This document shows positions 29,171 to 64,000 of a stretch of 64,000 bases of DNA, piece after piece. Position 1 is the stretch's first letter, and each line of letters begins with the position of its first letter. The stretch comes from Isoetes taiwanensis (taxonomy: Eukaryota > Streptophyta > Lycopodiopsida > Isoetales > Isoetaceae). The stretch covers positions 3,780,623 to 3,844,622 of the forward strand of contig JAJEKV010000027.1 of the NCBI GenBank assembly GCA_021234155.1, read 5' to 3'. Under the pieces are notes generated by a model. The model did no database searches, was not told the origin of the DNA, and saw nothing but the letters and a program-made list of their open reading frames with translations. The position numbers and the translations under genes are program-made.

Positions 29171-29350
29171 GAAGACTTCATATTATAACAATCACAAGGG
29201 TCCCCATGCGTACAATACAAATTTTGAATGCGATGTTGGTCTTACACAAATAGCAATTCTGACACTTCATATTATAACCAATCACAGGGTCCCCATGCAT
29301 TTCATCTCTAAATTTTGAATCTTATATTTGGTCTTACAAATAGCAATTCA
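29171..29350. repeat. 90-bp tandem duplication
   Basis: Units 29171-29260 and 29261-29350 share ACTTCATATTATAAC, AATCAC, GGGTCCCCATGC, AATTTTGAAT and TTGGTCTTAC..AAATAGCAATTC. It lies within the unclassified insertion. Confidence 0.85.
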
Positions 29351-44300: not shown

Positions 44301-44635
44301 AAGCAGCGGCATCTTGCTTGGGGGCGTGGTGATGAGCAAGCACTCATGCAGGGAGGCGTTTTGGGGCCATAGCTAGATGAAGAAGTGCGTGTCCGAATCA
44401 AGCGGCGAGAGAAAAGCGGCGGAGGATAGTGAGCGAGAGGCGGCAAGAAAGAATTTGGGGAAGAATTCCAAAATCCGATAATTCTTGAGGTTGAAGAGTA
44501 GTGGATAGCCATTAATCATGGCGATTTACTAGCTGGTCATGATGACGATTATTCCAAAAAATGTGCATTACGGTACATATGTATATGTACAAAAAGGGCC
44601 TACATTTATAGACACCCTTTCATGCTTTTACCCTC
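35385..44635. mobile_element. 9.2-kb Mutator-like DNA transposon nested in copy 2
   Basis: It splits the cargo gene of copy 2. The left end starts GAGGGTAATGC and the right end, inverted, starts GAGGGTAAAAGC. The two ends stay colinear further in (AGGGCCAATTTGT...GTACAT against AGGCCCTTTTTGTACAT), giving imperfect terminal inverted repeats. Flanks AAAGCATGA (left) and AAAGGCAATGA (right) look like a 9-11 bp target duplication, the size made by MULEs. GTACAT-type motifs are dense near the ends and in patches (36.4-36.86, 38.87-38.95, 42.63-43.1 kb). Internal frames (35705-35902, 37572-38187 plus; 41558-41755 minus) are short, broken and not recognised; no intact transposase. A stretch on the minus strand near 41.8-42.1 kb encodes a basic KPKRK-like segment. 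Class assignment rests on ends and duplication length. Confidence 0.6.
36395..36860. repeat. Cluster of GTACAT / ATGTACAT motifs
   Basis: This segment of the Mutator-like element contains many near-palindromic ATGTACAT or TGTACATT words spaced tens of bases apart. Further copies lie at 35438-35452, 38876-38943, 42642-42780 and 44573-44592. Clustered subterminal motifs are typical transposase-binding regions of DNA transposons; that role is inferred. Confidence 0.6.
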
Positions 44636-44981
44636 AAAGGCAATGAGGAAAACTATTCACGGAGCTCCACCCAGCCTAAGAGGAGAGCATCTCGTTATAG
44701 CTTTGGCACCGTAGCACTTAGGGAAATAAGGAAGTAACCGAAATACGAGGGATTCTTGCCTCACGGAAACTTTCCTTCCGGCGTTTGCTCAGAGATTGCT
44801 CAAGAGTTTAAAGGCGGATCTCAGTTTTGAACTCATGGAAATTTCTGCTTACTCAGAAGCTGACGAAGCCTATTTGGTGGCCCTCTTGGCGATGCAAATT
44901 TATGTGCTATCCATGCTAGCGGTAGCGATAATGACAAAGGACCTTGGTAGCCGCGCGGATCGTGGGGAGCGGCTTGCGTGA
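44636..44981 (+). pseudogene. Copy 2, histone H3 end of the cargo gene
   Basis: It resumes the cargo gene after the Mutator-like insertion, with ATTC(A/C)CGGAGCTCCACCC followed by the H3 core from about 44693. GTTATAGCTTTGGCACCGTA and ACTTAGGGAAATAAGG match the [14 protein letters not shown] codons of copy 1. A later frame reads EAYLVALL, and another contains IMTKDL. The stop is at 44979-44981, aligned with that of copy 1. Indels put the core in at least three frames, so it is non-functional as written. Confidence 0.85.
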
Positions 44982-45221
44982 CTATGTAAAACTCTTTTAT
45001 TTTTGTATGTATGTATCGATATATTAATATGAATCTGTTTGACTGCTATTCCAACTGTGATTTTCTTTCTTTTATGTATGTATATTAAAAAAATATATAT
45101 AATAAAAAATAATTAGTTGGCCTCGAGCGTGCTTCGGAGGTTTAAAGTAACATTCGCTTTAGGGTTTTTCATTCATTTCTTATTCCTTCGTTTTCTTCCC
45201 TCCTCCTATTTTTCGTCGGCA
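44982..45221 (+). other. Copy 2 spacer between H3 gene and second cargo gene
   Basis: It is AT-rich (TATGTATGTATATTAAAAAA) and then contains GCTTTAGGGTTTTTCATTC near 45160. It is colinear with the 56116-56360 spacer of copy 1. Confidence 0.7.
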
Positions 45222-47324
45222 ATGGTTAGCGTTTGGCATGGTACATGGGAGGGAAGCGATTGAATCTCCAGATTCCATACCCTCTTTTGGATTCCCGTAT
45301 TTAACACGGTGTAAAGTGGAGCCTTACTCCTGACAACATGCGGGCACCTACGATTATGACACCTTCTAGAGTTTTATGATGAGAAATCACCTTTGCTTGA
45401 GAGTTTTGGAGAAGCGCCTCAACCCTATCTCCATAGGGATATCTTGAGGAGCACATGTTTGGGGATGACCGTCACCCGTTATGATATTCTTAAGGGCATT
45501 GTCCCGGGCGTGCTAACTTGCCGTATTGATTGTGGCTCTAGCGAGGCGTACTGAGGCCCGGTTGCCCTTGCCTTATCATGGATAGGTATGTTGAAGTCGC
45601 AGGCTGCGGCCTTAGAGCAAGCCAAGTCCCCACTTCCCCGGATCTGAGGAGGATGGCGGATAAGCTATCTTTGAGCTTTTAGCCAAGATGCGGAAGGAAT
45701 TGGCCACCCGGAAGCCTTTACCTGCGTAGTAAGGGCTGGCTGTAATGAAGCAAGCTCCTTCCTACTATAAAGGTTGGGGATCAAGATTACCCCCTTTCTT
45801 GGCGGCATTCAATGGGCATATCGGCTATATAGCCAATAAGGGCAAGCAAAGAAGCGGCTCATCTCCTCATGAGCTGGTAGAGTATTGTCGAGGTGAGAAC
45901 GACTTCGCCGATTATTCTCGGCAGATACATGTGCGAAGATACACCAGCGCTCAACTATCGGCCTCTTGATGTTACAGGCCTATCCCATACCTTTGCTATC
46001 GCTACGGCGTTAATGATTGAGTACTCGAGTCCTCAATTCTGAATCGGCTTTTCCGCGCTACGACATTCCCAACATCAACGATGTAAATGCGTCAAAAGAT
46101 CGAAGGCGACTTAGCTTATCGGAGGATCATGTGGTGAAGAGGCCAGTATGCTTTCCGGGAGGAGAAAGATTTTGCTATGGAAGGCCCCAAAGCACGATGC
46201 GGGTGAAGCTGTTTAACCCATCAAGCATTTGCGGGATTGAAATGCCATATTACCCGGTTCTTCTTGTGGAAGCTTCCGCGAGCAAGCGAAGTCCTCTTCT
46301 TTGCTAAAGCAATTGCACACGAAGCGGTACGTATGAGCGCAGGGCACTTTCTACGGCCAAGCGGCCATAGAGATTGCCCACCAACCTCGGCGGAGTCATC
46401 ACGGTGAATGCGTGATCTAGCCATTGATGTTTGACCATCGGTTCTTGGATGAACATGAGTCTGTTGGTTGCAGCGCCATTGGCTACAAATGTTCCACGAG
46501 AGATAAGCTTCATCCAGGCTGCCTCATGTCCCGATTTAACCTAGTGTGCTACTCTGTGGCCACGACCCGAGGCGACTTTTTGACACCCAAGCACAAGATG
46601 TGGAAGAGATTAGGCCTCTTAGTTCTAGATTTTATCGAACAATTGTATCAGTTTTAAGTAGTTTTGATTGGCGTACCTTTAGTAAGGCATCCACGCAATT
46701 CATGTACTATTTTCTTATATATATTGAGGATATCTCCTTATATTTTTCTTGTACTGATGAAAACCATTGAATTGTCTTTTTCCTTCAATGCTTATCTCTC
46801 TTCCTTAAAGTTGGGGTATAAGAAAAATTGTTCAATGTATATATATTCATTCTTGCCACCTTTAGACGAGGACTCGAAGAATATGAAGAAAGAATCAGGC
46901 CGGATAGCGGAAGGGATGATCGGGCCTCACAGAGCGAGTTCGCGACCCAGCGATATGGGGAGTACCGGAGCGAGGCGGTGATTATGAGATGAACCCATAG
47001 AGGCGAGAAGAGCCCTATGATTCAGAAAGGGGTTGGAAGTAATTAGCATTCTGGAGAGCGGGCCTTTGAGGATGCGAAGCAAACTCTTAGATGCACATGG
47101 GACTATTGAGACATGACAAGGCATGAAGCTTTCTTGATGCCAATGATCACTGTGGCGAGATTTTTCTGTATGCGCTAAGGAGGCTCTTTTCGAAAATCTC
47201 GCTATCCATTAGCCCACATCACGACTACCAACCTATTATCATCGGTGCGCTTCACAAACTGAGTGGTACGTAGCGTCGAGTGTTAACTACTGCGATCTTG
47301 TACCCGCTTTGCGAACCGATCCTT
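45222..47324 (+). pseudogene. Copy 2, second cargo gene, broken and cut off
   Basis: Colinear, on the plus strand, with the minus-strand cargo at 56115-54030 of copy 1. The ATG at 45222 aligns with that at 56115, the TTCAATGGGCATATC segment is at 45807, the CATTCTTGCCACCTT intron end is near 46850, and the CTTGTACCC near the stop is at 47299. All frames are broken. The sequence ends exactly where the outer end of the 3' LTR of copy 1 begins (47325), so gag, pol and the 3' LTR of copy 2 are missing. Confidence 0.8.
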
Positions 47325-48925
47325 TGTGGCTTCGGCCGGTATACTCGACCCCGGCCGTATACATCTGAGGACTTTCCCCTCCCGCGGCGACCATCTGCGC
47401 CATGGCGTTTCAGTCTATCGGGGCCATCTATAGAAAGATGCGAGTGAAGAGTTTCTGAGGAGGTGTCATTACGGCCCATACCTTCAATGGGACTCGTGTG
47501 AAGAAGCGTGAATACATGTTAGCGCACAGCGCCAAATCATATATATATATATATAAGTAACCACCGCGAAAGGTGGCACATCCATCAAGTACCACGGCAA
47601 AAGAATATGCATCTATAAGGAAAACACCCCAAACCCGGAGTTCTACCCGGTTGAGACTCTGTGAGGATAAGAAGCGGCGGCACCGGTCTCAGAATCAGCG
47701 AGGCCAGTATAACTGGCGTTAGGCATAGAAACGATGGCTAAAGGTTGTCCCTCCCATCCGCCCCTCACATTGCACACTTTGCGGTGGGTGATTGCCTTGT
47801 GGCTTGCGCTACGCTTATGCGAGCAGACTCAAGGTATCACCCTCTGACACCTACTCGAGTTCATGGCATACGGTCCGGCGAAGCGAGGTCAAAAGGAAGA
47901 ATACCTTCCCGGGGATCCGCGGTAGTTCCATGTGGGTGAGCTAGAGAAATCGTGCCGCGTCGGCGACCCGCATCCGTACCCGACATACTCACCTAAATCT
48001 ACTCAAAGTGCAAGGTGCTTACATATGGGTCACACCTGCACACCCGAGGGAGTGTGAGACCCGCCTGCCCGGCCCCTCACGTGACCAGCTGCTCGGGGCC
48101 TAGCCCAGCTGGCCAAGTCTCATGAGCCTTTTATGTTAGGTGCAAGACCCCCACCCCCACTTCACCATGCGTCCCTTCTAGAATTTTAAGCCATTCCATA
48201 GCATCGACGTGTCTCTTGTACCTGAGCATAAGTAATGGGAAATCTGAGGATCATCCTAGGAGCATTCTACTACATATGGCTGAGAGGTCTCTACCCCCAT
48301 AATTTCCCCCATTTCGAGTAATACTATACAAAAGAACTATCAATCCATCGCTAGAGCAAGACCGAATGAGAAATAAAAGAACTCAACTTTGCAAACAAGG
48401 GGTTGGTTCCTACAAGTAAAACACGAGAGAGAAACGAGGAAGAAATAAACACTACAAGTGCTTAGCAGTACCTAGAATTCTCAAGTTATACTGCTATAGC
48501 CACCCACACGAGTTCTGCTTTGGACCCGTTTGTCATTTGGTGCTTCCATCTTCCTTGGACTTGGTGCTACGTACGGCTACGGAGGGTAAAGGTGCTTGGC
48601 AAGGTGGGCGCTCAGCTCCTGCTCCTCCTGATTGATTATGGGAGACAATTTAGGGGTAGGGGTCAAGTTGACAGCCCAATTTGGAAGTCCCCATGCTGGC
48701 CAATTAATTTAGGCCAGGTGGCGCCTTCCCAAAGCATTAATTAGCTTAATTAACCCACTTAATATTAATCCCTAAATTATAGGTTATTATCTTTAATGAT
48801 TAAATTCTAATTTAATCCCTTTTAGGTCAACCCCCTAGGTTACAATACCCCATGGTGGCATACCTTTGCTGGGTGACGTGTCAGTATATTTATACATATA
48901 CCGTATAAATACCTGGAACGTCACA
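47325..48925 (-). repeat. 3' LTR of copy 1
   Basis: 1601 bp, colinear with 58337-59951. In plus orientation it begins TGTGGCTTCGGCC and ends ACGTCACA. The inner end is followed by the purine tract. It differs from the other LTR mostly at CAG/CTG sites (CCAGAG against CGAG, CCTGAG against ACGAG, CTCTGGCT against TACGGCT). An (AT)n run lies near 47538-47557. Confidence 0.93.
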
Positions 48926-48940
48926 TTCTTCCCCCCTTAG
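48926..48940 (-). other. Polypurine tract of copy 1
   Basis: The minus strand reads AAGGGGGGAAGAA immediately before TGTGACG of the 3' LTR, the standard plus-strand primer position. Confidence 0.9.
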
Positions 48941-49544: not shown

Positions 49545-50318
49545 CTACCCCTGTAGAGCATTACTCTTGGCAATCAAGCTTCCAAGCTTACCGCCGGTTG
49601 CGGGGTTGATAGCATCGTTGATGGTGTGGCCCTGAGATTCCTGCATGAAGTCCGAATAGTGCTTGTCAAGGTCTATCTTCATCACCCAGGTAGCATCCTC
49701 AACTGGTAAGTGCTTCCACTTAACCAAGTATTGCAACATTTGAGTCCTTCTGGTTTGTTTATAAGCTCGATCAAGAAGAGCTTCAGGCACTATCTCCAAC
49801 TGCTCCTCTGTCATTTCTAGGAGGGTAGGGGTATCCAAAACCTCCTCTGGATCAGGGGTGTGTTGTTTCAGAAGACTCACATGAAGGACCTTGTGGATCT
49901 TCAAGCGGGGTGGCAAATCCAAGCGATATGCCTGTTCTCCAATACGTTCAATGATTTTGAACGGCCCAGCCCATCTGGGTGCCAACTTCTTGCAGTTATC
50001 AATCTTAAGCTTGGCTTGTTTTACTTTAATCTTAAGCCAAACTGATTCGCCCACCTGGAAGACTCGTGGGGTTCTGTGCTTATCCGCTACACTCTTCTGA
50101 CGACTGCGCGCAGCTAATAAGTAACCACGAACCTCTTCAATCAAGGCTTGCATTTCCAAGAGGAGTTGTTGAGAAAGCTCCACCTTAGAAACAGGGTTAT
50201 GCCATGTGTCTGGAGTAAGACATTGATAACCATAATTTATCATAAAGGGAGACATCCTGGAAGACTCATGTTTCATGCTGTTATAGGCAAACTCTACCAG
50301 ATATATATACTCCACACA
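49545..50318 (-). pseudogene. Integrase C-terminal part with chromodomain
   Basis: This frame takes up pol after a break at about 50.31 kb. It starts at VEFAYNS, the helix following the integrase catalytic core, then has the GPFKI(I)ERIG barrel and the KIHKVLHVSLLKQH motif (about 49.88 kb). It ends with a chromodomain at about 49641-49805 (QYLVKWKHLPVEDATW). The first aromatic residue of the HP1-type methyl-lysine cage is not conserved (IVPEALLDR at that place), as in the 'group II' chromodomains of many plant chromoviruses. Chromodomains of this type help direct integration to particular chromatin. The frame ends at a stop at 49545. A loss of about 30 bases plus a frame change separates it from the upstream integrase frame. 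Confidence 0.9.
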
Positions 50319-51232
50319 TAACTTTGTAGCATATCTTCGATAATACGATTGGTACGTTCTGTCTGACCATCCGTCTGAGGATGATATGCCGTACTTATAG
50401 CAAGCTTGGTCTGGATGGTGGCGAAGAAATCTTTCCAGAATGCACTTACAAATTTGGGATCCCTGTCGGATACAATAACTCGTGGCATTCCGTGCAACCT
50501 GAAGATCTCCTTTGCAAATAGCAGGGCGGTGTCGAAGGCGGTGTCGGTGGTACGACATGGCAAGAAATGAGCCATTTTCGACAATTTGTCGACCACTACC
50601 ATCAATGCATCATATCCACGGAGAGTACGTGGAAGGCCCACAATGAAATCCATGGTTATCACTTCCCACTTAGCATTGGGCACATCCAGAGGTTGCAACT
50701 CTCCTGGAATCCTTAGTTGCTCAGCCTTGGTTTGTTGACACACTTGACACTGCTTAATGTACCTAGCAATGTCCTTCTTCATGGAAGGCCAAAAATAACT
50801 GGAGCGGATCTTAAAGTAGGTCTTCATAAAACCTGCATGTCCAGCTATAGGGCTATTGTGTGTGTCATGGAGAATCAGCTTACGTACTCCTGAAGTCTCA
50901 GGTACACACAACTTATCCTTGTAATATAGTAAGTGGCCCTCTTTCTTATATGAACGGAAAGCTTCCCGCTCTTTATCTGTGCGTGCCTCCTTGGTCAGAC
51001 TATCCCAAACATCACGGAACTCAGGATCTGTGGCCAAGGTTTGTTCTATTTGTTTTCCAAACTCACTGGTGAGTGTGAAAATTGCATTACAATGGGTTCG
51101 GGTTACCAAGGGATGGCGTGACAACGCATCCGCAACTACATTGTGCTTCCCAGGCTTATACATAATCTCAAAATCATACTCTTCCAAAAATTCCATCCAT
51201 CTTCTCTGATGGAGGTTGAGACTCCCATGTCC
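50294..51232 (-). pseudogene. RNase H remnant and integrase core
   Basis: The frame opens with the last part of RNase H ([15 protein letters not shown], then [10 protein letters not shown]). The integrase follows: the HHCC zinc finger (HDTHNSPIAGHAGF ... CQVCQQTK), then the D,D-35-E catalytic core with Asp in ITMDFIVGLP, Asp in VIVSDRDPKF and Glu in HPQTDGQTERTNR. All catalytic residues are present. It joins the element's cDNA to host DNA in the nucleus. The frame is lost just after EDMLQSYV, where a short deletion shifts reading into the next segment. The start at 51232 is where the sequence re-enters the pol frame after an internal deletion that removed most of RNase H. Confidence 0.9.
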
Positions 51233-52060
51233 CTTACTGCTTCTATCTTTCCTGGATCTGTAGCAATTCCCTCTGCTGAAATGATATGCCCCAAATAATC
51301 CACCTTGGGAGTGGCAAACTTGCACTTATAGAACTTGGCATAGAGTTGGTGACGTCTTAACTTTTGTAGGGCCAACCTAAGATGTTGCTCATGCTCTTCC
51401 AAAGTCTTGCTATAGATGAGAATGTCGTCAAAGAAGATAACAACAAAATCATCTAAGTATTGTCGGAAGACGTCATTCATCAATCGCATGAAAGTTGCAG
51501 GAGCATTAGTTAATCCAAAAGGCATAACGGTAAACTCATAATGCCCATATCTAGTGCGAAAAGCAGATTTATGGATGTCCTCGTCCTTAATCCTTATCTG
51601 ATGATATCCGGAGCGTAAATCAATCTTTGAGAAATATTTGGCCCCTTGCAACTGGTCCATTAGATCGTCTGCCCTAGGCAAAGCATAGCGATTCTTGATG
51701 GTATGCTTATTGAGCTGCCTATAATCAATACACATCCTCAAGGAGCCATCCTTTTTCTTAACAAAAAGGATAGGAGCGCCAAAAGGCGAAACACTAGGCC
51801 GAATGAAACCTAGGTTTAGTAACTCCTGAAGTTTCTTCTTAAGCTCTGCCAACTCTGGGGGACTCATGCGGTACGGGGCCTTGCTGGTAGGCTTAGTACC
51901 TGGTTCTAGAGCTATCTCACATTCTACCCCTCTAAAAGGAGGAAGCTTCTGGATCTCATCTGGAAAAAGATCGCTAAATTCTCGGAGAAGATTAGCAATC
52001 CCCTTTGGCAAGGTATCGATTACTTGCTTCTGCTTAGCATCCGACTCAATGGAGGCAAGT
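51233..52060 (-). pseudogene. Reverse transcriptase, truncated after the thumb
   Basis: Ty3/gypsy reverse transcriptase. The fingers motif is [16 protein letters not shown]. Catalytic Asp 1 is in [24 protein letters not shown] follows, and the catalytic Asp pair is FFDDIL, where the usual second residue of the YxDD box is Phe. [10 protein letters not shown] then begins the thumb. At GKIEAV the sequence jumps directly (about 51233) to the end of RNase H, in a different frame, so the connection and nearly all of RNase H are missing. The frame is -1 relative to the gag-protease frame, with a short overlap around 52061. I see no canonical slippery heptamer there. Without RNase H this copy could not complete reverse transcription alone. 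Confidence 0.9.
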
Positions 52061-53425
52061 CTAATGACGCAAAAGGAGCTTATCCTTGCGTATAGCTTTT
52101 TCTAACTGACTGATGGACATAGACTGCATAATAGGGTTGAATGGATCACCTTTTACAGTCACGCGGGCTCCATTAGCGGCGTTGAAGGTAACTTCCCGTT
52201 TCTCGCAGTCTATATTGGCCTTTGCAGATGCCAAGAATTCCATACCAACAATAAGATCATATTTGCCAATATCCATTATCTCGGCACCCAAGGCAACTGG
52301 TGCACCTGGTAACTGCATCTTAAGGTTAATGCGACGGCCATGAGTGTGTCTGATCTTACCACTGGCTAGAGTGACAGGCTTTGGTCGGGACCTCAAAGTT
52401 TCGAGCTGCAATACCTGGGCCATTCTAGGAGAAGCAAAATTATGTGTACTACCCATATCCATCAAAATTATGAAAGGCTTACTGTCTACTTGGCCTATGG
52501 TGGAAATAACAGAAGGCTGACTTTCAGCATTGCCGGTTTCGATGGCTGCAAGGATATGAGACGCACTGTGAATGTACTTGGGAGCCTCCTCCTTGATAGG
52601 TGGTGTGGACTCAAGGTCATCCCAATCGAGGTCGGCCATGGCCAGCTGGGCAGTCTGCGTGACATAAGGACAATTCTGCATGAAGTGCCCGGGCCGCATA
52701 CACCTGTAGCATGCCTTATCCCGGCGGAGCTGCTCTCGAGCCTCTTTAGGAATGGACTGTAAGAGGTTCCGAACTTCCTTGCCGACATTATTCGATTTAT
52801 CGGGCGTGCTGAAGGTGACTTTCTTTTCCTGGCGGCCGTGAGAATTCTGCTGAGAGGGTCCCGGACTGGGTGAACGGCCCTTATAAGGTGTGTACGGGCG
52901 TGGCTGGGAGTAAGATGCTGGACGTTGGTACTGGCTTCGCGGCGTGTCCTCTTCAAGGCTCAGTGCCTTAGCCTCGGCCTCCGCAACTGACTTGGGGTCT
53001 ATGGCCTTAACCATTCGTTTAATTGATGGGGCCAACCCTTCAATGTAGCCCTCCACCACCCTCTTCTCATTCATACCCGGCACATATAGCCTCAGGCGCA
53101 TGAATTCATCAGTGTGGGCCTGGACCGACATACTCTTTTGCTCTAACCGGTAAAAAGTTTGAATTTGTTGGCATTTGTGCGCACAAGGCACGTAATGCGA
53201 CTTAAAGGCTTTAGCAAACTTTCTGAAGTTGCATCTACTCCTATCCAGATGCTTGGCTCTGGCATAGCCCTTCCACCAAATACGGGCAGCTCCTGTAAGG
53301 TTTGTGGTGGCAACCTTCCCTGTATTCTTTTCTGTCATGCCATAGGATTTCCCAAACTCCTTCATCTCGTCGAGCCAGGACTCTGCATTCAGCCCACCTA
53401 TAGATTTGCCATCAAATTGGGCCAA
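52061..53425 (-). CDS. Gag (capsid, zinc knuckle) and aspartic protease
   Basis: A 454-residue open frame. Residues about 10-160 are a retrotransposon capsid domain ([50 protein letters not shown]). A Pro/Ser-rich linker follows, then a CCHC zinc knuckle at residues 239-252 (C-x2-C-x4-H-x4-C). The aspartic protease follows with active-site DMGST at 323-327; most family members have D(S/T)G, so Met after the Asp is unusual. IVGMEFL is the downstream hydrophobic-Gly block. Gag forms the particle that packages the element's RNA, and the protease cuts the polyprotein. The N-terminal part of Gag lies in another frame just upstream (53449-53766), so the Met at 53425 is only the first in this frame. 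Confidence 0.9.
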
Positions 53426-53448: not shown

Positions 53449-53766
53449 TTATGGCTGTATCAACCGTTTTACGATACTCCTTGTCCCGACGATGTAACCT
53501 CGATGACGTTTGGAACGGTGCCTCCTCGGTACGGGTGCAGGACTGGATTCAGGTACAGAAGGCTGCTGTGGTGGGGGACTTGGCGGTAACGGAGGTAACT
53601 CAGGTCCATCCTCCTGGACATGCTGCGGTGGGTTGACATTTAGTACATAAGTCTGCAACTCAACTAGTTGCCTCTTCATCAACATAAGTTCCTGCTCAGG
53701 GGTTAACCTACTGGCATTCGAGGGTGTCTGCCAGGCGGCGTTGCGTGCACCGTCTATATTGAGCAT
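53449..53766 (-). pseudogene. Gag N-terminal region, separate frame
   Basis: Encodes a segment with a predicted helical stretch (LTPEQELMLMKRQLVELQTYV) and a proline-rich stretch, typical of the region ahead of the capsid domain in plant chromovirus Gag. It runs into the capsid frame only after a frame change near 53.43-53.48 kb. The Met at 53766 is the likely Gag start, since a 250-bp non-coding spacer precedes it. Confidence 0.75.
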
Positions 53767-54021: not shown

Positions 54022-54482
54022 CTAGGGGTTCGTAAAAGGGTACAAGATCGAGTAGCGAACACTTTCACGCACAGCCCTGACTAGCTTGTAGCGCGCCCAG
54101 GTCTGGATGATAACAGGTTGGTAGTCGTATGTGGGGCTAATGATAAGGAGATTAAAGAGCCTCCTTAGTGCATAGAAAATCTGCCACAGGTGATCATTGG
54201 CATCAGCAAAAGCTTCATGCCTTGTCATGTCCCAATAGTCCCATGTGCGACGAAGAGTTTGCTTCAGATCCTCAAAGGCCCGTTCTCTGAGAATGTTAAT
54301 TACTTCCAACCCCTTTTCTGGATCATAGGGCTTTTCTGGCTTTACGGGTTCCTCCATCTCATAATCACCGTCTCGTTCTGGGTACTCCCCATATCGTTGG
54401 CCGTAATCCTGTTCGGGAGGCCCTGGATCATCCCTTCGTATCTGGTCGGTGATTCTTTCTTCATATTCTTCGAGTTCCTCGT
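54022..54482 (-). CDS. Terminal acidic exon of cargo gene B
   Basis: An open segment of about 150 codons from 54482 to the stop at 54022. It is preceded by TGCCACCTTGCAG, a good plant 3' splice acceptor. The first 45 codons are strongly acidic (DEELEEYEERI, then many Asp/Glu/Pro/Tyr). A basic-aromatic helical part follows (LRRTWDYWDMTRHEAF ... WARYKLVRAVRESVRY). No family recognised. The acidic stretch resembles in composition those of histone-binding proteins, but composition alone proves nothing. If the acceptor is used, this is the last exon of the gene starting at 56115; otherwise a Met at 54357 would begin a 111-residue protein. A colinear copy lies at 46864-47320. Confidence 0.55.
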
Positions 54483-54726
54483 CTGCAAGGTGGCAAGAAT
54501 GAATATATATACATTGAACAATTTTTCTTATACCCCAACTTTAAGGAAGAGAGATAAGCATTGAAGGAAAAAGACAATTCAATGGTTTTCAACAGTACAA
54601 GAAAATATAAGGAGATATCCTGAATATATATAAGAAAATAGTACATGAATTATGTGATGGCCCATTAAAGGTAATGCCAATCAAAATTACTTAAAACTGG
54701 ATACAATTGTCTGATAAAATCTAGAA
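54483..54726 (-). other. Probable intron in cargo gene B
   Basis: AT-rich with a pyrimidine-rich 3' part ending CTTGCAG, between two coding-looking segments in different frames. It is better conserved between copies 1 and 2 than the neighbouring exons appear, including a TGTATATATATTCATTCTTG stretch. The donor site is not clear (GTATCC near 54.7 kb is a candidate). Confidence 0.45.
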
Positions 54727-56115
54727 CTAAGAGGTCGACCCTTCCACATCTTGTGCTTGGGTGTCAAACTCAGGCTCTGGTCGGTGCTGCAGGAGTAGCA
54801 CACTAGGGTTAACTGATGAGGCAGCTGATGAAGCTATCTCTGGTGGAACATTTGTAGCCAATGGCGCTGCAACCAGCAGACTCATGTTCATCCAAGAACC
54901 GATATCGTGGTCAAACACTGCAATGGCTAGATCACGATTCACCAGGATGACCTGCTCGAGGTTAGTGGGCAACTTCTTATGGCCGGCGGTCGTAGAAAGT
55001 GCCCCAAGTGCCCATACAGCCGCCTCTGCTTCAGGTGCAATTGCTTTAGCAAAGAAGAGGACTTGCTTGCTCGTGAAGGCCGACAAGAAGAACCGGGTAA
55101 TATGGCATTTCAATCCCGCAACAGTTGGATGGGTTGAAGAAGCCAATTCAGACTCCAAGTTTTGGGGCCTTCCATAGCAAAATCTTTCTCCTCCTGAGCA
55201 TACTGGCCTTCACCACATAGATCCTCCATAGTTGGGTCGTCTTCGATCTTGACGACGACATCGTTGATGTTGGGAACATGTGGGGTGAAAGGCGGAAAGC
55301 CGATTCGAATTGAGGACGAGTACCCCAATCATTAACCGTAAGGATAGCAAGAGTTGATAGGCTCAACATCAAGAGGCCGATAGTTGAGCGCTTGGTGTAT
55401 CTCTCGGCACATAGAGCGGTCGAGAATAATCGATGAAGTCGTTCGACCGGCGACAATACTCGGCCAGCTCATAGAGGAGATGAGCCGTCTTTTGCTTGCC
55501 CTTATTGGCGATATGCTGATATGCCCATTGAATGTCGCTCAGCAGCAAGTAATCTTGATCCCCAACCTTTATAGTAGGAAGGGAGCTTAAGCCGACAAGA
55601 GCTTGGCCCTTACTACGAGGTAAAGGCTTCTCTGTGGCCAATTTTCCATCTTACAAAGTCGGCATAGCTTATCTGCTCATCCTCCTCAGGATCTGGGGGA
55701 AGTGGGGACTTGGCTTGCTCTAAGGCCGTGTCGGTACCGTCAACATACCTATCCATGATAAGGGCAAGGGCAAACTGGGCCTCAACAGCTCGTTAGAGAC
55801 ACAGTCAATAATGGGGGCGTGCTTAGCACGTCTGACAATGCCCTTAAGAATATCATAACTGTGACGGTCATCCCCAAACATGTGCCCTAAGATATCCCTA
55901 TGGATATAGGGTTGAGGCGGCTCTCCGAAAAACTCTGCTTGGGGCAGGATTTCCTCATCATAAAACTCTAGGAAGGTGTCATAATCAGGGTGTGCCCGCA
56001 TGTTGTCGATAAGGTCGACTCTACACTGCAACATGGAATCCAAAAGAGGGTATGGAACCTGGGGATCCCACTGCTCTCCTCCCATGTACCATGCCAAACG
56101 CCCAGCGTAATCCAT
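54727..56115 (-). pseudogene. Cargo gene B, unrecognised protein in several frames
   Basis: Starts at the ATG at 56115 (MDYAGRLAWYMGG) after a leader that looks like a plant 5' UTR. The first frame runs to about 55.80 kb (EFYDEEILPQAEFFGEPPQ, HMFGDDRHSYDIL). Continuation requires frame changes: EQISYADFV near 55.67, DIQWAYQHIANKGKQKTAHL near 55.53, VPNINDVVVKIEDDPTMEDL near 55.27, then an Ala/Leu-rich last part (55158-54727). Total about 460 codons. I recognise no domain; it is acidic overall. Copy 2 has the same gene in the same place (45222-46660), so it is a fixed part of the element. The frame breaks may be sequence errors, given the pattern described for CAG/CTG sites. Confidence 0.6.
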
Positions 56116-56360: not shown

Positions 56361-57723
56361 TCACGGCCGTTCCCCACGGATCCGGCGTGCCAGCTGAAGG
56401 TCCTTTGTCATTATCGTCACTCGCTTAGCATGGATAGCACATAAATTTGCATCGCTAAAGAGGGCCACCAAATAGGCTTCGGCCGCTTCCTGGAGTGCTA
56501 GAATTGCATGAGTCTGAAACCGGAGATCCGTCTTAAACTCTTGAGCAATCTCTCGGACCAAACGTTGGAAGGGAAGTTTCCGTAGCAAGAACTCGGTAGA
56601 TTTCTGGTACTTCCTTATTTCCCTAAGTGCTACGGTGCCAGGCTTATAACGATGCCTCCTCTTAGGCTGGGGTGGAGCTCCGGGAATAGTTTTCCCCGCT
56701 GTCTTTGGATGCCGGGCCTTTCGGATGATTTCATCTCGCCGATTGTCCCCTGCAGCCTTAGCGACACCACCCCGAGCCTTGAGCTGATCCTTATACTGAG
56801 CACCCGACTTACGGGGCGTCTTCTTCAGTCTTCGGCGAGGAATATAAACATTCGGGGGTGGCTGATCTTGACGGTCTCGTTCCTGTTCTTCTTTCCTAAG
56901 CCGCTCCTTGACTGCCTCTGTTGCCTCTCTCGCCCTCTGCTCTGCTTCATCCTGCATTCTTTTCCTATTCTGCTCCTGTTCTAGCTGCTGTGCATGGAGG
57001 GTATCTTCACGAATCTTAGCAGCCTCCTTTGTCAATTGAGTTGCCTTCTGTGATTGTGCCAGGAGTGCTGCCTGCTCCTCTGCTCGCTTTTCCCTGGCTA
57101 TCCGAATGTCCATTCTTCGTTTAAGCTCGAGGAAATACCGTGGAGGGTTGGCCTGCATGTCCTGCTCGACGGCCCGCTGGAACTGATCTGTGAAAAATGG
57201 GGGTGTTCCAGCTTCCCAAATGATACGATTAGTCTCCTCCTCATATGAAAAAGATGGGATGGTGTATGACCCCCTATTAAAGAGGCACATCCCGTTGCCA
57301 AGATAACGGTACCTTGAAGCTAGATCATCGGCTGCAAGCCATTGTAGGTCCGCTGCTTATGCCATTTGAAGGATCTTATGGGTCTGCGTTTGTATGGCCT
57401 CGGCTTCAGCTTGCTCATCCCCTTCCGATGGAAAGAACCGTGTATATTTCTGGACACCATCTTCCTGTTCAACCACGGTGTACGTTTCTTGGATGGCGTT
57501 AAGCTTGTACACGAAGCGCTCGTTATAGCAAAAGAGCGGGTATGGTGGTATGGTATCCTAATTCCTTCATAGAAACGTTTAACAAAGTACTCCAGTAGCT
57601 CCTCAATTTTAGCCTCTTCTTCTGGCGATGGGTTGGGCGTAGCAGCAGTTCGGCCATCAGGGACTCTATGGGAGATTTAGAATAGCGAGGCTTGCGCTTG
57701 TATACCTGCTTGGGTTCCTCCAT
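56361..57723 (-). CDS. Cargo gene A: coiled-coil protein with C-terminal histone H3 domain
   Basis: About 453 codons from the ATG at 57723; an upstream in-frame Met at 57846 is also possible. A frame change near 57.62 kb and an in-frame TAA at 57357-57359 interrupt the first third. From 57290 the frame is open for 309 codons. In that part, residues 1-50 are unassigned. Residues 52-140 form an Arg/Glu/Gln-rich coiled coil. Residues 151-212 are a basic tail with TPRKS and KARGGVAK, reminiscent of the H3 tail. Residues 213-309 (56364-56654) are a full histone H3 core from [19 protein letters not shown] to RRIRGERP. It has the canonical 97-residue length, no loop-1 insertion and the normal C-terminus. 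Residues equivalent to Y41, H87 and L90 match plant H3.3 rather than H3.1. Other changes include FLL for LLI, THAI for SHAV, and MTKD for MPKD. The product could enter nucleosomes with H4; function is unknown. Confidence 0.92.
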
Positions 57724-57939
57724 CACAAAAAGGTGGGCGCTGAGTGGGCGCTTGGGAGAGGAAGGCAAGAAACGAGGTTTGGCTATGGCGGAGGGAAGCT
57801 TCCAGTTCCGGCGGCTATGGCGGCTAGGCGGAGCACAAGAGAGCACTAAGCGTTAGGAAAAATGAAGGAAAAAGTTACCTTTGACTAAATTTTGAAATTT
57901 TTTTTACCCTAAATTTTTTTTTTTTTTAAAGAAAAAGTG

Positions 57940-58155
57940 GCGGAAACGCGTTTTTCTAGGCGGTGGGCACCCCCTACCTCGACGTCGCTACGGCCGCCAG
58001 GAGCGTCCGGGTACCCCCTGCCCGCCACTTAGGGTTAGGTTTTTTTTTTTTTTTTTTTTTTTTTTAATTAGGGTGGCGGGCACCCCCTACCTCGACCTCG
58101 CCACCGTCGCCAGCAACACCCGGGTACCCCCTGCCCGCCACTTAGGGTTAGGGTT
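57940..58155 (-). repeat. GC-rich leader tandem repeat with telomere-like words
   Basis: Two units (about 57958-58037 and 58074-58150) share GGCGGGCACCCCCTACCTCG, GGGTACCCCCTGCCCGCC and ACTTAGGGTTAGG. They are separated by a run of about 28 T. The repeat is also visible in the copy 2 leader. Homopolymers here are likely to be poorly resolved. Confidence 0.8.
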
Positions 58156-58320
58156 TTGCACCGGGTACACATACCATTATTATTCTTAAACCACGTTAAA
58201 TCAATCATGACGGCATCTACTACACCACCCAAATCTCATACTACTCCAAAATCCTCACTCACTAGCTAACGATCTAACGAGCTAGTATGTGGCCAGTGCA
58301 ATAGTTTGGCTTCCCGTGCA

Positions 58321-58335
58321 CCATGCTCGATACCA
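58321..58335 (-). other. Primer-binding site, initiator tRNA-Met
   Basis: The minus strand reads TGGTATCGAGCATGG one base after the 5' LTR. The usual plant iMet primer-binding site is TGGTATCAGAGC. The single difference is CAGAG written as CGAG, the same loss seen across the window. Confidence 0.9.
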
Positions 58336-58336
58336 C

Positions 58337-59951
58337 TGCGGACGCCCCTCGAATATATACGACCCCCGGCCGTATACATACGGGGACTTTCCCCTCCCAC
58401 GGCGACCATCTCGCCATGAGCAGGGCCCTCCGTCTATCATCTATAGAAAGATGCCCGAGTGAAGGACACGGAGGTGTCATTCGGCCCACGCCTTCAATGG
58501 GACTCCTACGTCGCGGAAGCGTGAATACATGTTAGCACACAGCATAAATCATATATATATATATATATAAGTAACCACCACGAAGGGTGGCACATCCATC
58601 CAAGTACCACGACAAAGAATATGCATCTAATCCTAAGGAAAACACCCCAAACCCCAGGTTCTACCCCGGTTCAGACTCCTGTGAGGATAGACTGACGGCT
58701 CGGTCTCAAGAGATCAGCAGACAGAGGTATAACCTGGCATTGGCTGGCATAGAACAATGGCTAGGGTTGTCCACTCCATCCGCCCCTCCTGTGCACACTT
58801 TGCAGATGGGTCGATTCACGCTATGGCTTCGCTATAGCCTTCCGGAGACACAAACTCAAGGTATCACCCTACGAGCCTACTCCAGGGTTCATGACGCCCC
58901 GGTCCGACGAGGCAGGTCAGGGAAGCGTCCCCTTCCAGGATCACAGTGGTTCCATGGGTGAGCTAGAGAATACGTGCCGCATCAGCGACCCCCGCATCCG
59001 TACCCGACTTACTCACCCTAAATCTACTCAAAGTGCAAGGTGCCCCATACGGGTCACACCTCTACACCCAGGGAGTGTCAGACCCATACCTGGCCCTCTA
59101 CGTGACCGGCTATCAGGCCTAGCCCACTGTAGGAGTCTCAGGAGCCTTTTATGTTCGTGCAAGACCCCACCCCCACTTCACCACTGCGTCCCTTCTCTGG
59201 TGCTAGGCCATTCCATAGCATCTACGACCCGGTGGTCTCTTGTACACAGGCCGCAAGTAATGGGAAATACAGGGATCATCCTAGTAGCATTCTACTACAC
59301 ATGGCTCAGAGGTCTCTACCCCCCTTAATTTCCCCCATTTCCAGAGTAATACTATATAAAGAACTATCAATCCATCCTTTAAGAGCAAGACCAGAATCAG
59401 AAATAAAGAGAACTCAACTTTGCAAACAAGGGTTAGTTCCTACAAGTAAAACACAGAGAGAACAGAAGAAATAAACACTACAAGTGCCCAACAGGGGCGC
59501 TACCCTAGAATTCTCAAGTTATACTAGCCACCCACCTGAGTTCCTGCTGGACCCGTTGTCATTTGGTGCTTCCATCTTCCTTGGACTTGGTGCTCAGCTC
59601 TGGCTACACAGGTAAAGGTGCTTGGCAAGGTGGGCGCTCAGCTCCTGCTCCTCCTGATCGATTATGGGAGACAATTTAGGGGTAGGGGTCAAGTTGACAG
59701 CCCAATTTGGAAGTCCCCATGCTGGCCAATCGATTTAGGCCAGGTGGCGCCTTCCCAAAGCATTAATTAGCTTAATTAATCCACTTAATATTAATCCCTA
59801 AATTATAGGTTATTATCTTTAATGATTAAATTCTAATTTAATCCCTTTTAGGTCAACCCCCTAGGTTACGATACCCCATGGTGGCGTACCTTTGCTGGGT
59901 GACGTGTCAGTATATTTATACGTATACCATATAAATACCTGGAACGTCACA
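58337..59951 (-). repeat. 5' LTR of copy 1
   Basis: 1615 bp. In plus orientation it begins TGCGGACGCCCC and ends ACGTCACA. It carries an (AT)n run at 58552-58570 and an ACACGTCACC word near the upstream edge (transcription runs leftward). Open frames of 68-145 codons in it are shared only as chance frames with the other LTR and are not genes. Confidence 0.93.
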
Positions 59952-59956
59952 GTTTA
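59952..59956. repeat. Putative 5-bp target-site duplication GTTTA (right)
   Basis: Matches GTTTA at 26344-26348, on the far side of the compound structure, rather than the bases next to 47325. Confidence 0.5.
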
Positions 59957-61094
59957 AATATATTATGGTTTAAAGAAAAATATGCTTTTTATTGACTGAA
60001 CAAAAGCAAGAACGCGCCAAACAGGTTGAAAATTATGATATTAAAAGTATTTTCTTTGATGTTTTCGAAAGTCTAAGCAAGTAGTATTATTTTTGAATAT
60101 CAGGCTTAAGGTGTACATCTGATTCATTTGAGTGATAGTATCAGAAAAGCAGACAGTGACCACAGTATAAGAAAAGATGCACCCTAAGATTGGGTTTTCC
60201 ATTGAAAGTTTATTAAGTTACAAATCATTCTATGGAAGGAATACTGACAAGTACCCATCTGGATTGTTAAATAAAAATGGTTCTCCATCTTTAGCATAGA
60301 ATTAATCCTCTGTTCCTTTTAAACATAAGGCTAAGAAGGTGCAATGAGTGACCAGTGATAAACCAAGAGACTCTATGTACCTTCTGGCCCTGGATTTGTT
60401 ACCATTTTCATGCTAACAAATTCTTGGTTGGCTGCAGGTACGAACGTCTCTCTTCTCATTGCTCTTTGTCTGTTGTTCGAAGGGAACTTTGAGGGAATAG
60501 TACTACTGTCAAAGGCTTTGATTACCAATTGTGGAGGGCACCTAACGTTTTATCCAGTCTGCTGATATGGTTGCATGTTGACCTTAATGATGTTTTGTTG
60601 AACTATCACTGGTATGATATACTTAATTTTTGGCTACTTAAGGCATAAATATAAGAGGTATAATATTCTCCAACTTTCAATGTATTGAAAAAATGTGATG
60701 TCCTTCATTCGTAACAGACTGTTTTTTGAATTTACGAATTATGTTTAGCATATTTGACAGTCCATATAACTAACAGTTCTAAGTATATTCGTGTTTAAAC
60801 ATATATTTGGTTTCAACAGCCTCTCATGAGTCTAATAATCGACATATGCAGTTACATGTATATCCACCTTAAGTCTGTGCTACAGAATGGGTTTAAACTA
60901 ATAATTTGTTTCTTGTTTAAATAGGAAAGGAGAAACCTTTGATGAAGATAATTTTTAAAAGATTAACAATTCGAGTAATCAATTTCCAATTAAAGGCAGC
61001 TAGTGTTATGTACTAGAAGAAAGAAATATGATACTCTAATAACAACAAAAGCTAATTTAAATACGTCCATTAGCACCTAATGAATTTTACAAGC
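59957..61094. other. AT-rich non-coding stretch
   Basis: No frame, RNA gene or element recognised. It could be intron or intergenic sequence of a gene further right. The TTGGCTGCAG|GTACGAACG-like junction near 60437 resembles splice signals, but no exon is evident. Confidence 0.4.
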
Positions 61095-61860
61095 TTTGAA
61101 TAGAATAGAATAGAATAGTTTTTTTAACGTCCACGGAGACCAATAGGTCATGGGACCCATACAATGGGCTAGTACAATCATTACTACTAGGATTAAAAAA
61201 CCCCTGCCTCGAAAGGTTTTCAAGGGAAAAACCTTTGCAGTAATGATGATACTAGACAAGCAGAGATAATGACTACTGAGGGCTCAGTAATTGCAGACGT
61301 TTATCTAGAACCTCAAGTATGTATAATGCCAAGTCATGCACAGATGGTGCTCTGAGAAGTTGTGGAAGCGTGGAATGGAATGCTAAGGTCAAAAAATGAT
61401 TCCAGACTATCTCAAAAGCAGGGCAACTCAGAAGAGTATGGCTTTCATCTTCAATAACCTGTAACTGGCAACAGGCACATAGCCTCGCTTCTCGCGGCAA
61501 TTGCGGCCGCTCCCATCTACCTGTCTCAATCCGTAGCCTGTGGGACCCCGTGCGAATTGATGCAATAGCTACAAGCTTGTTCCTGGATAATGAAGCAAGC
61601 AAATAAGCTTGGGGCCCTGGTGCCAAGGTGGGATTTATGTGTGCATGATAATGACCAGTTTTCACTTGGGCCAAAGTAACTGCGTCCCATATCTTTTGAG
61701 AAAAACGACCATTGAGATATTGTTGCAAAAGCTCAGGATCAGAACTGGCAAGCATCAGGTAGTGCTCTGGTTGCACAGCCCAACGGGCAAACCATGTAGT
61801 GCAATGCTCTTTCCAACATCGTTTCAAACGCTGAGGAGATTCATTTGAATATGTAGCATA
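61095..61860 (-). mobile_element. 5'-truncated LINE with (TAGAA)n tail
   Basis: On the minus strand: a coding part (61827-61273), a 3' UTR of about 150 bases ending GGTCTCCGTGGACGTTAAAA, then the (TATTC)n tail at 61118-61098. The tail matches that of the LINE at 17.75 kb. The 5' break is near 61.86 kb. No target duplication was identified. Confidence 0.75.
61273..61827 (-). pseudogene. LINE ORF2 C-terminal end with CCHC-type zinc motif
   Basis: An open frame of 184 codons that lacks the reverse transcriptase. It contains SHRLRIETGRW, then a zinc-binding signature (C-A-C-C, with His and Cys in ESHTLLSCPAF). This is the typical C-terminal segment of L1/Jockey-like non-LTR retrotransposons, where it binds nucleic acid. 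The Met at 61827 is not a true start; the ORF is the tail of a longer polyprotein. The frame is intact over its whole length, which suggests a fairly recent insertion. Confidence 0.75.
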
Positions 61861-62137
61861 ATAACATGGGGTTTTTTGTGTGTTTTTGTACGCTTTTCAC
61901 AAAGGTTTTCCTAAGATTTCATGGCGTATTCGAATGGATGTACTAATGCGTACATCTAGAGTGCACCATATCTTAGTCGTTGATTTAGTTTTTTTTTTTG
62001 CAATGGTCCAACATCGAAGGGCTCAAAACAAAAGCCCTCTTTTTATTTTAGGGGCTGAACATGCAAGCCTCGTGGATAGCATTTCAGGGCATTCTTGCAA
62101 AAAATTAATGTTCTTGTGATCAGACTTACGCAGTGGC

Positions 62138-62338
62138 ATGGATAGATCCGGCAGTAAGGCAATGTACTCTGCTCAACGAAGAAATCATGTCTGGAATGGC
62201 AAGCTAACATTTTTTGTGGATGATTCAAGCATTCGAGACGGAAGCGGAGCATTTATGGTAGAAATTTATTCCCATGGAGCCCTGAGTGATTATTTAGTAG
62301 GAACTGTAAGATATCCCTTCAGATGCAAGGCAAAATAG
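62138..62338 (+). other. Possible exon fragment, unassigned
   Basis: A short frame with WNGKLTFFVDDSSIRDGSGAF, followed by more beta-strand-like sequence. It resembles a beta-sandwich carbohydrate-binding or lectin fold, where an Asp-x-Ser-Gly-x-Phe turn is common, but it is too short to assign. No clear splice sites. May be a chance frame. Confidence 0.2.
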
Positions 62339-62451
62339 TGCCGCAAATACTCAGTTTATGGCTTATAGTGTGCGCAGATCTTGAGGCCGTAAACATGGCA
62401 TACTCAATGTTTCCGTCAGACTCCATTACAGATCGATTCTTCTTCCTCTCC

Positions 62452-62752
62452 AAACCCTAACCCTAATACTCCATCTTCTAGACCTAATTCTTCAAGCTCT
62501 AGGGCAACAGAGGCAGTTATGGCTTATCCTCAACAATCTTACCAATCTGCTGAGTCTATTTCTGAAGGATTCTCTGAACATATCCCATTATGTGGAAGCA
62601 TATCTGTGCCTATATCTGTGCAGTTTCCTAGAGCTTTTCTTTCAAATCAAATAACAGGGACATCACGGCACATCGGATTTGAAGCAGCAATTTGCAGCAT
62701 ATTTGAAGCAGCGGATTTGTCAAGGCAGATGTCAAGTTTTGGGCCTTTATAA
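62452..62752 (+). other. Possible 5' end of a gene (telo-box plus short frame)
   Basis: AAACCCTAACCCTAA at 62452-62466 is followed at 62519 by an ATG opening a 77-codon Ser/Gln-rich frame (MAYPQQSYQSAESISEGF). The arrangement resembles a plant 5' UTR and first exon. No domain recognised and no firm splice donor seen. Confidence 0.25.
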
Positions 62753-63026
62753 AAACTTCTAGGGCAAATCCAGAGTTCGGGGTTTCTCCTACAGCCAGAG
62801 CTCGGGAGGTTTCATCTGCAGCCAGAGCTAGGGAGTTCGGGAGTTCTGGAGTTGGGGAGTTCTTTTTCCTTTTTATTTTTTGAAATTGCTGGAAGGGTCG
62901 GCCTGCAGGAATCTCAGATCTCCAAATGATCCACCGCAGCTCAAGTTTTTCGCCGGAGTTAAGAAGAAGCCTGTCATGTGCAACAGCGACGCCTAGGCTG
63001 CTTTGCTTATTCAAACCTCTGCATTA

Positions 63027-63133
63027 ATGGCTTCCTTGTCAAATTTCGTTGCATTAAATCGGCCGTTCCACGTGCTCGCTGCTCCATTTACGAGCATGAT
63101 GATGCCCTACTGTACTCGGTTTTACAGTATCAT
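63027..63133 (+). CDS. Possible first exon encoding a targeting peptide
   Basis: The ATG at 63027 opens a 35-codon frame rich in Ser, Arg and hydrophobic residues and poor in acidic ones (MASLSNFVALNRPFHVLAA). It ends at a good donor, CAT|GTGAGTATA, at 63134. Composition fits a mitochondrial or plastid transit peptide. It could belong to the gene whose exon lies at 63.6 kb, though GH9 enzymes normally carry a secretion signal, so a separate gene is equally possible. Confidence 0.3.
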
Positions 63134-63570
63134 GTGAGTATATAGTCCCTCCTTTCTCTCAATACCTTCTAATCCTCTTCCCGTTCAACCAGCGGTTTAT
63201 AATTCTTAGAATTTTTTTCTCTTTTGCTCTTCGGTTGGATTATAAGGCAAGCTTTCTTGATTCATGGCTCCAGTTTTCTAATGGTGAAAACGGAACTACC
63301 ACCGGTAGTTTGTTTGGCGATTCTTTGCTCCTCTCATAATTCACTTCTTTCGCTTTAACGTGGAGTTTTTACTCTTCTCCGCCATTTTTTTGAATGCTTC
63401 ATACATCTTTTGATTCCGCATACACATATCTCGTAGTTTTAGATTTTGCACAAACCGCAATGGGGATTTTGGCATACGCATGATCGTAACACTATTCGAC
63501 TCGATTTCTCAGAGAAGCAGCCTAGCGAGGAGATTCGCCCCTACACACACGAGATGATGTAAACCCGACA

Positions 63571-63799
63571 TAACGTAGGATTATATGACGCAAATAGACG
63601 CTAAAGGGACACCGTGGAAGTTTGGTTTTGCAATGGCTTGCAATGGCTTTTGTAGCCACAGTTCTAGCATGGAGAATTCTTGAAAAAGCTGGATTGCTTG
63701 ATCAAGCAAGGGGTACAATGCAAGCAAGGGGTACAATGCGCTGGATTACAGATTATTTTATAAAGATTTCATCCTTCCAAGAATGAGCTATACTTCCAG
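63571..63799 (+). pseudogene. GH9 endo-beta-1,4-glucanase exon, disrupted and partial
   Basis: Frames here read LYDA, KFGFAMA, then VLAWRILEKAGLLDQA, MRWITDYFIK and KNELYFQ, ending at a donor CAG|GTGAAATT at 63800. This matches the N-terminal part of the catalytic domain of glycoside hydrolase family 9 (GGYYDAGDNVKFG...MAF...LAW...RWGTDYFIK...ELY.QVGD). These enzymes cut beta-1,4-glucan in cell walls. Two short direct duplications (GCAATGGCTT twice at 63629-63648; CAAGCAAGGGGTACAATG twice near 63703-63738) and one extra base near 63763 change the frame. The conserved GDN is not readable. The rest of the gene lies beyond the window. Whether the breaks are genuine or sequence errors cannot be told. 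Confidence 0.6.
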
Positions 63800-64000
63800 G
63801 TGAAATTTCACCCCTTGTCCTTCTAAGCATTATGTTATCTTCTATTTTTCATTATGCATTGTGCTCTCTCTCGTTTGTTCTAAGCTTAATTCCACACTGT
63901 TAAACCATGGAATTCATTGCTTCAAGTTATGCAATGGCTTGCTTTCCTCTGTCCAAGCTCAAATTTACATACTACCTTGCTAGCATTTGTCATGTTCTTG

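Follow-up and report, generated by a model that had tools for sequence, protein, structure and literature searches.

The window, that is, the whole 64,000-nucleotide stretch of Isoetes taiwanensis DNA analyzed here, harbors between 47.3 and 59.95 kb, on the minus strand, a chromodomain Ty3/gypsy LTR retrotransposon with accessory open reading frames (ORFs) between its primer-binding site (PBS) and gag. We refer to this element as element B, to distinguish it from a second member of the same family, copy A, described below. Its features, from the 5' to the 3' LTR, are as follows.

58337-59951, minus strand: 5' LTR (TGTGACG...CCGCA), from the self-alignment of 58354-59951 with 47340-48925, ends read from the sequence
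58319-58335, minus strand: PBS TGGTATCGAGCATGGTG, one base past the LTR
57724-58318, minus strand: leader, containing a pair of 86-nt direct repeats and, at 57881, a donor-like AAGGTAA
57291-57723, minus strand: upstream part of ORF1 (from MEEPKQV), interrupted in element B, with a homologous stretch in copy A
56361-57290, minus strand: ORF1, open frame of 309 codons comprising helix, H3 tail and H3 core
56838-57290, minus strand: ORF1 residues 1-151, E/R/A/Q-rich, predicted helix at residues 49-141
56655-56837, minus strand: ORF1 residues 152-212, H3 tail, RxKxTxRKS retained and the rest diverged
56364-56654, minus strand: ORF1 residues 213-309, H3 core H39-A135, from ungapped comparison with plant H3.3
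54727-56115, minus strand: ORF2, in three frame pieces (55720-56115, 55369-55641 and 54727-55158), present in copy A
54022-54501, minus strand: ORF3, 159 codons, preceded by an acceptor-like TTGCAG
53449-53766, minus strand: possible N-terminal gag piece, an ORF with no Pfam match
52061-53425, minus strand: gag capsid and aspartic protease (Pfam Ty3_capsid, 2.1e-14; Retrotrans_gag, 6.5e-14; RVP_2, 5.5e-13)
51136-52011, minus strand: reverse transcriptase (RT) (Pfam RVT_1, 5.8e-39), thumb and RNase H absent after about 51220
50294-51325, minus strand: integrase zinc-binding region and core (Integrase_H2C2, 4e-21; rve, 1.4e-7, its 32.1 bits lying slightly below the Pfam cut-off of 32.6)
49545-50558, minus strand: C-terminal part of integrase (SH3_Tf2-1, 4.8e-21) with chromodomain at about 49641-49790 (Chromo, 4.9e-8)
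48926-48938, minus strand: polypurine tract AAGGGGGGAAGAA, read from the sequence
47325-48925, minus strand: 3' LTR, error-rich below about 48560, outer end approximate

Pfam matches and self-alignment revealed the hallmarks of a Ty3/gypsy chromovirus, namely, the order gag-protease-RT-integrase, a chromodomain at the C terminus of the integrase, LTRs, a PBS and a polypurine tract. The PBS resembles the complement of the initiator tRNA-Met; scanning the window for tRNAs and Rfam families returned nothing at the thresholds used. Since gag, protease, RT, integrase and chromodomain all follow downstream on the strand of ORF1, ORF1 sits between PBS and gag, in agreement with a preliminary description of the locus that had placed a sense-strand gene there. 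The same description had taken the element to be structurally complete, which it is not: element B is a defective copy. Its pol is spread over three frames, and reading the three minus-strand frames by eye showed that RT runs straight into the integrase zinc-binding region, with neither thumb nor RNase H in between. A Pfam scan likewise gave no RNase H match in any of the four gag-pol ORFs. We attribute the missing RNase H to a deletion inside this copy, the family placement resting on the other features. Upstream of the ATG at 57290, ORF1 is interrupted by one frame change and one in-frame stop. No matching target-site duplication was found at the flanks (47317-47340 and 59951), one flank and LTR end being error-rich, and self-comparison of the window showed that the sequence of copy A, which ends at element B, does not resume past the right end of element B (no match in 59951-64000). 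Element B may therefore have undergone LTR-LTR recombination or deletion, or an assembly join may lie in the LTR; the stretch from H3 to pol is in any case wholly inside. As ORF1 is broken upstream and pol is defective, neither of the two copies in the window is intact.

The gag ORF keeps the zinc-knuckle motif CxxCxxxGHxxxxC, as read by eye. In an alignment with the HP1 chromodomain, the chromodomain of element B has I, W and L at the three aromatic-cage positions. Group I chromodomains, the readers of H3K9me, have three aromatic residues there; in element B the first and third are absent. Such a cage is of the type found in group II chromodomains, described as lacking a known partner (PMC3350952, PMC6317226). 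ORF1, a sense ORF between the 5' LTR and gag, has the position of a Tekay-type 5'aORF, and this anatomy, combined with the group II-type chromodomain, suggests that element B belongs to the Tekay clade. Remains of a second Ty3/gypsy integrase, with a protein 27-33% identical to that of element B, lie at 16208-17502 on the minus strand. The window also contains an open frame of 200 codons that encodes a HAD-type hydrolase at 8439-9041 on the plus strand (Pfam, 1.2e-12), perhaps a host gene, and a 184-codon frame at 61273-61827 on the minus strand with a weak zf-RVT match (E of 0.033, below the cut-off), perhaps the end of a LINE.

The 309-codon frame of ORF1 (57290-56361, minus strand) is open throughout and ends in a histone. 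Residues 195-305 matched the Pfam Histone family at 5.9e-43, and among the H3 chains of solved nucleosomes in the PDB the best value, 1.5e-52, was obtained for an H3.3 chain aligned with residues 189-308. The last 97 codons aligned from H39 to A135 without a gap, as would be expected from the full H3 core announced in the preliminary description, and were identical to plant H3.3 at 85 of 97 positions and to H3.1 at 82 of 97 (12 versus 15 differences), the references being Rosa H3.3 (P0003) and the H3.1-type copy in P0001. The core carries Y41, H87 and L90, which we take to be diagnostic of H3.3 and at which the difference between H3.3 and H3.1 is visible between the two references, and it retains K56, K79, K115 and K122. 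Its net charge is +9. The 12 changes relative to H3.3 are L60F, D77E, S86T, G102A, T107A, P121T, I124L, R42K, I62L, V89I, E105S and A135P. We also considered the centromeric histone CENH3, which has a diverged core and a longer loop 1, and rejected it, the core of ORF1 being too canonical and aligning ungapped to H3.3 at 85 of 97 positions.

In contrast to its core, ORF1 lacks the canonical N-terminal tail of H3.3. The tail keeps R2, K4, T6, R8, K9 and S10 (RxKxTxRKS) together with scattered residues, exceeds the host H3 tail by about 22 residues and has a net charge of +17. In front of it lies a predicted 93-residue helix, for which AlphaFold2, run on the single sequence, gave pLDDT values of 92 to 96 (means of ten-residue blocks) over residues 81-130. 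The model of ORF1, made without an alignment, had a mean pLDDT of 61.5; the helix was confident and the histone part was not, so that the assignment of the H3 fold rests on sequence comparison. The helix may be a coiled coil or a single helix; of the in-frame coiled-coil N-terminal part proposed earlier, the frame and the long predicted helix are retained. In its core identity, its H3.3-type residues and its conserved lysines ORF1 resembles plant H3.3, from which it differs by the diverged and enlarged tail, the long helix in front and the location within a retrotransposon.

It is unlikely that the 212 codons preceding the core are open by chance, since none of 5000 base shuffles stayed open. 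Third-position GC was 0.50 in the helix, 0.54 in the tail, 0.51 in the core, 0.53 in gag and 0.45 in RT; the similarity between helix, tail, core and gag is in line with a long residence in the element, without being proof of it. When the 309-residue frame was compared with known proteins, the H3 part was matched, but residues 1-200 had no homologue at an E value of ≤0.001 among 568 candidate proteins. Among the best 120 of the 7935 matches to full-length ORF1, motif counting gave two or more copies of H3 in 119; a relative with one H3 and a weak match at its N terminus could lie below these best 120. Of 22 pattern matches to ORF1 in viral contigs, none was confirmed as a relative, and no homologue of gag-protease was found at an E value of ≤0.001 among 6598 candidates. 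With no relatives of either ORF1 residues 1-200 or gag-protease, the lineage seems poorly sampled.

We then asked how conservative the core changes are. The 12 substitutions relative to H3.3 had a mean BLOSUM62 score of +0.83, compared to neutral means of -0.59, -0.56 and -0.50 at transition weights of 1, 2 and 4, obtained by simulations that placed twelve non-synonymous single-base changes at random in the same codons, with Rosa H3.3 standing in for the host ancestor. A score of +0.83 was reached in only 20, 9 and 24 of 5000 runs, respectively. The core changes are thus unusually conservative. Together with a tail that changed and gained about 22 residues next to an ungapped core, this suggests that the histone fold was under constraint and the classical tail was not. 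The constraint may stem from the element itself or from a host gene before it, such as an H3 variant captured late.

Beyond ORF1, element B has two further ORFs before gag. ORF2 and ORF3 are, as judged from sequence, putative accessory proteins of the element family; their pieces had no Pfam domain above the cut-off and one below it (TBX2-3_RD, E of 0.0084). A simple pattern search gave nine acceptor-like matches in total, among them sites on the minus strand near 56131, before ORF2, and near 54498, before ORF3. ORF1 could accordingly be translated from unspliced RNA and the later ORFs from RNA spliced from the donor-like site at 57881. The direct repeats of the leader, of 86 nt each (57959-58044 and 58072-58157), contain CCCTAACCCTAA-like telomere-type motifs and oligo-T runs.

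Self-comparison of the window identified copy A, a member of the same family on the plus strand, which is split by two insertions and ends at element B. Its parts are as follows.

26352-28338, plus strand: 5' LTR and leader, from self-alignment
34178-35372, plus strand: upstream and N-terminal part of ORF1, from self-alignment
44635-47317, plus strand: H3 end of ORF1 (to about 44980), ORF2 and ORF3, from self-alignment and motif test

The order LTR-leader-ORF1-ORF2-ORF3 was identical in copy A and element B, with 77-82% identity and many gaps. All six core motifs tested, the shortest of 6 bases, recurred in copy A with their order unchanged. They cover 7 of the 12 derived H3 residues (L60F, D77E, S86T, G102A, T107A, P121T and I124L), the other five (R42K, I62L, V89I, E105S and A135P) falling outside the motif test, in stretches where the alignment of the two copies is unreadable or ambiguous. 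The derived residues common to both copies indicate that the histone was acquired and altered before the copies separated. Since copy A also shares the leader, the H3 gene and both of the ORFs that follow, the histone gene belongs to the element family. The insertions in copy A (28339-34177, 5.8 kb, and 35373-44634, 9.3 kb) have inverted-repeat-like ends, TAGCA.../...TGCTA and AAAGCATGAAAG.../...CTTTCATGCTTT, and are probably DNA transposons.

The differences between the two copies are concentrated at particular sites. In the three stretches of copy A, 86, 91 and 95% of CAG sites were touched by changes, as were 79% of those in the 3' LTR of element B, compared to 12 to 24% of ATG sites in the two ORF-bearing stretches of copy A. 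CCG, ACG and CTG sites were changed at 67 to 87% in the two longer stretches of copy A. With the four stretches pooled, the rate per base on CG/CHG sites was 0.197 for substitutions and 0.155 for indels, and at least 9 bases away from them it was 0.039 and 0.068, respectively. Of the one-kb intervals, 41 of 48 in 1-48 kb had CAG/CTG at less than 0.9 of expectation, compared to 5 of 16 in 48-64 kb. The signature spans positions 1-48560, in particular 26352-28338, 34178-35372 and 44635-48560, and is largely missing from 48.6-59.95 kb. We infer that most of the differences in copy A are uncorrected nanopore base-calling errors at CG- and CHG-methylated cytosines, in which case copy A would be methylated in the sequenced plant. 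The CHG focus of the errors, the H3.3-type residues and a chromovirus with a group II-type chromodomain all speak for a plant source of the DNA. Age and decay alone were rejected as the main reading of copy A, given that the changes focus on CAG and include frequent A>G changes and indels, not C>T alone.

Base-calling errors of this kind mean that ORF breaks in the error-rich stretches should not be taken as biology. The two LTRs of element B were 83.5% identical, and at the error-poor LTR end 14 of 361 bases differed, with 2 additional indels; with errors at CG/CHG sites, LTR identity is no clock, and differences between copy A and element B neither date the insertion nor measure selection. 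For the H3 piece, the comparison gave 10 non-synonymous and 4 synonymous changes off CG/CHG sites (over 175 non-synonymous and 51 synonymous sites), 5 and 1 at a distance of at least 2 bases, and 2 and 0 at a distance of at least 3 bases, all error-dominated. The corresponding counts for the N-terminal piece, equally dominated by errors, were 18 and 9, 13 and 2, and 12 and 2. No purifying signal was seen in these counts, in which errors prevail.

Parts of this arrangement have precedents. The 5'aORFs of Tekay (Del) chromoviruses, as in sunflower Tekay group 2 and rice RIRE3/Retrosat-2, are also sense ORFs between the 5' LTR and gag (PMC11728184). Their products are predicted to be nuclear and to combine helices with disordered or low-complexity parts, and the authors suggest that they may modulate RNA silencing (PMC11728184). 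Unlike the 5'aORF products described there, that of element B terminates in a complete H3, and gag is preceded by two additional ORFs; the word histone does not occur in the main text of that paper. The histone H4 of bracoviruses (CvBV-H4/CpBV-H4; see also PMC5423620), with about 87% identity in the fold and an extra tail of 38 residues, is described as entering host nucleosomes and altering host expression through its tail (PMC9145170). Like this H4, ORF1 encodes the single histone of a genome parasite, with high fold identity (85 of 97) and an extended N-terminal tail. Unlike it, ORF1 is an H3 with some 150 extra residues plus an enlarged tail, whereas the bracovirus protein, with its 38 extra residues, belongs to a wasp polydnavirus that does not retrotranspose. 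Closest in terms of the gene itself are the hAT DNA transposons of Dothideomycete fungi that captured histone H3 (PMC6710886), which are likewise mobile elements with an intronless host H3 coding sequence amplified in the genome. In contrast to element B, these are DNA transposons, and the available passages give neither a fused N terminus nor a 5'aORF position (PMC6710886). Among the listed matches in the literature on histones in mobile elements, which lie mostly outside subscription papers, we found no LTR retrotransposon with a histone gene and no plant chromovirus with a histone, the latter in keeping with the preliminary description. While 5'aORF chromoviruses, parasite-borne single histones and H3 capture by fungal hAT elements are already known, a histone in an LTR retrotransposon has no counterpart among these matches.

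Plant LTR retrotransposons are silenced mainly by a loop that joins histone H3 methylation with methylation of the DNA. The explanation that we favor, with a probability of roughly one half, is that of a chromovirus family that captured a host H3.3 and kept it as a 5' accessory ORF whose product enters nucleosomes and perturbs silencing. The family would have taken up the coding sequence of a host H3.3-type histone, free of introns and joined to the end of a long helical segment, and the fusion would have become a 5'aORF. ORF1 would be translated from element RNA, and its product would enter the nucleus, pair with H4 and join nucleosomes by the replication-independent route of H3.3. The altered tail and the bulky N-terminal helix would then weaken or redirect the marks by which the element, or its cDNA before integration, is silenced. 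The parts of this scenario differ in strength. That H3 was captured and kept as a working histone is rather probable, and nucleosome entry is likely in view of the intact core. Nucleosome deposition and an effect on silencing are proposed by analogy with bracovirus H4, and anti-silencing as the main role of ORF1, equally an analogy, is less likely than not. The broken upstream part of ORF1, the defective pol and the absence of a purifying signal between the error-dominated copies count against the favored explanation, as does the error pattern of copy A, from which this copy appears to be methylated despite carrying the H3 gene.

The main alternative, which we consider rather unlikely, is that the H3 gene, perhaps a diverged host variant with a long N terminus, was a passenger gained shortly before copies A and B, brought no benefit and owes its constraint to the host gene. 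Capture of gene fragments by plant LTR elements is common. The window holds two copies that are of one lineage by their common derived residues; the upstream part of ORF1 is broken in element B, and the comparison of the copies, error-dominated as it is, shows no purifying signal, all of which a passenger would explain. The fungal hAT elements offer a precedent, their H3 copies in Pseudocercospora fijiensis being inactivated by RIP and those in Pyrenophora tritici-repentis potentially active, according to the available passages (PMC6710886). However, a passenger accounts poorly for N-terminal residues 1-200, which had no match at the above threshold among the 568 candidates, for an H3 tail changed and enlarged in contrast to the full-length H3 tails of the matched proteins listed, for the fixed order of ORF1 and two further ORFs in both copies and for a 309-codon frame that is still open. 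An assembly artefact joining an H3 gene to the element is very improbable: the large error-rich stretches in the window and the lack of a matching target-site duplication of element B would fit it, but the LTR-leader-ORF1 order is identical in two copies on opposite strands, and 48.6-59.95 kb is largely devoid of the error signature.

Two other readings leave ORF1 a function different from that of silencing interference. ORF1 might condense nucleic acid in particles or on cDNA, its helix assembling and its H3 part and basic tail binding DNA or RNA, without ever being nucleosomal. The basic character of tail and core (net charges of +17 and +9, respectively) agrees with such a packaging role, as does the long predicted helix, which would suit self-assembly. 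Packaging would not, however, need the surfaces for H4 pairing and H3-H3' contact, yet conservation extends over the whole core, whose changes are conservative, and the zinc knuckle of gag leaves no nucleocapsid gap to fill; we regard this reading as improbable. Equally doubtful, and slightly more so, is that the encoded H3, in chromatin or on an H3.3 chaperone, guides the integrase to its targets, perhaps through binding of the chromodomain to the retained TPRKS motif. The tail does retain RxKxTxRKS and the integrase does have a chromodomain, but with I, W and L in the cage two of the aromatics are absent. A cage without the first and third aromatics is not expected to bind methylated K9, and the idea of a chromodomain reading the element's own K9 motif was downgraded for this reason.

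The favored explanation, a captured H3.3 kept as a nucleosomal accessory protein, would in its most specific form amount to a counter-defence, in which an LTR retrotransposon family makes its own tail-extended H3.3, deposited independently of replication on its own or host chromatin, and so escapes heterochromatin silencing; we offer this form tentatively, as something that may well not hold. If true, the element would encode a substrate of the very loop that silences it, with the tail changed, and would be a test case for retroelements fighting silencing at the nucleosome. The 5'aORFs of chromoviruses would then acquire a content as well.
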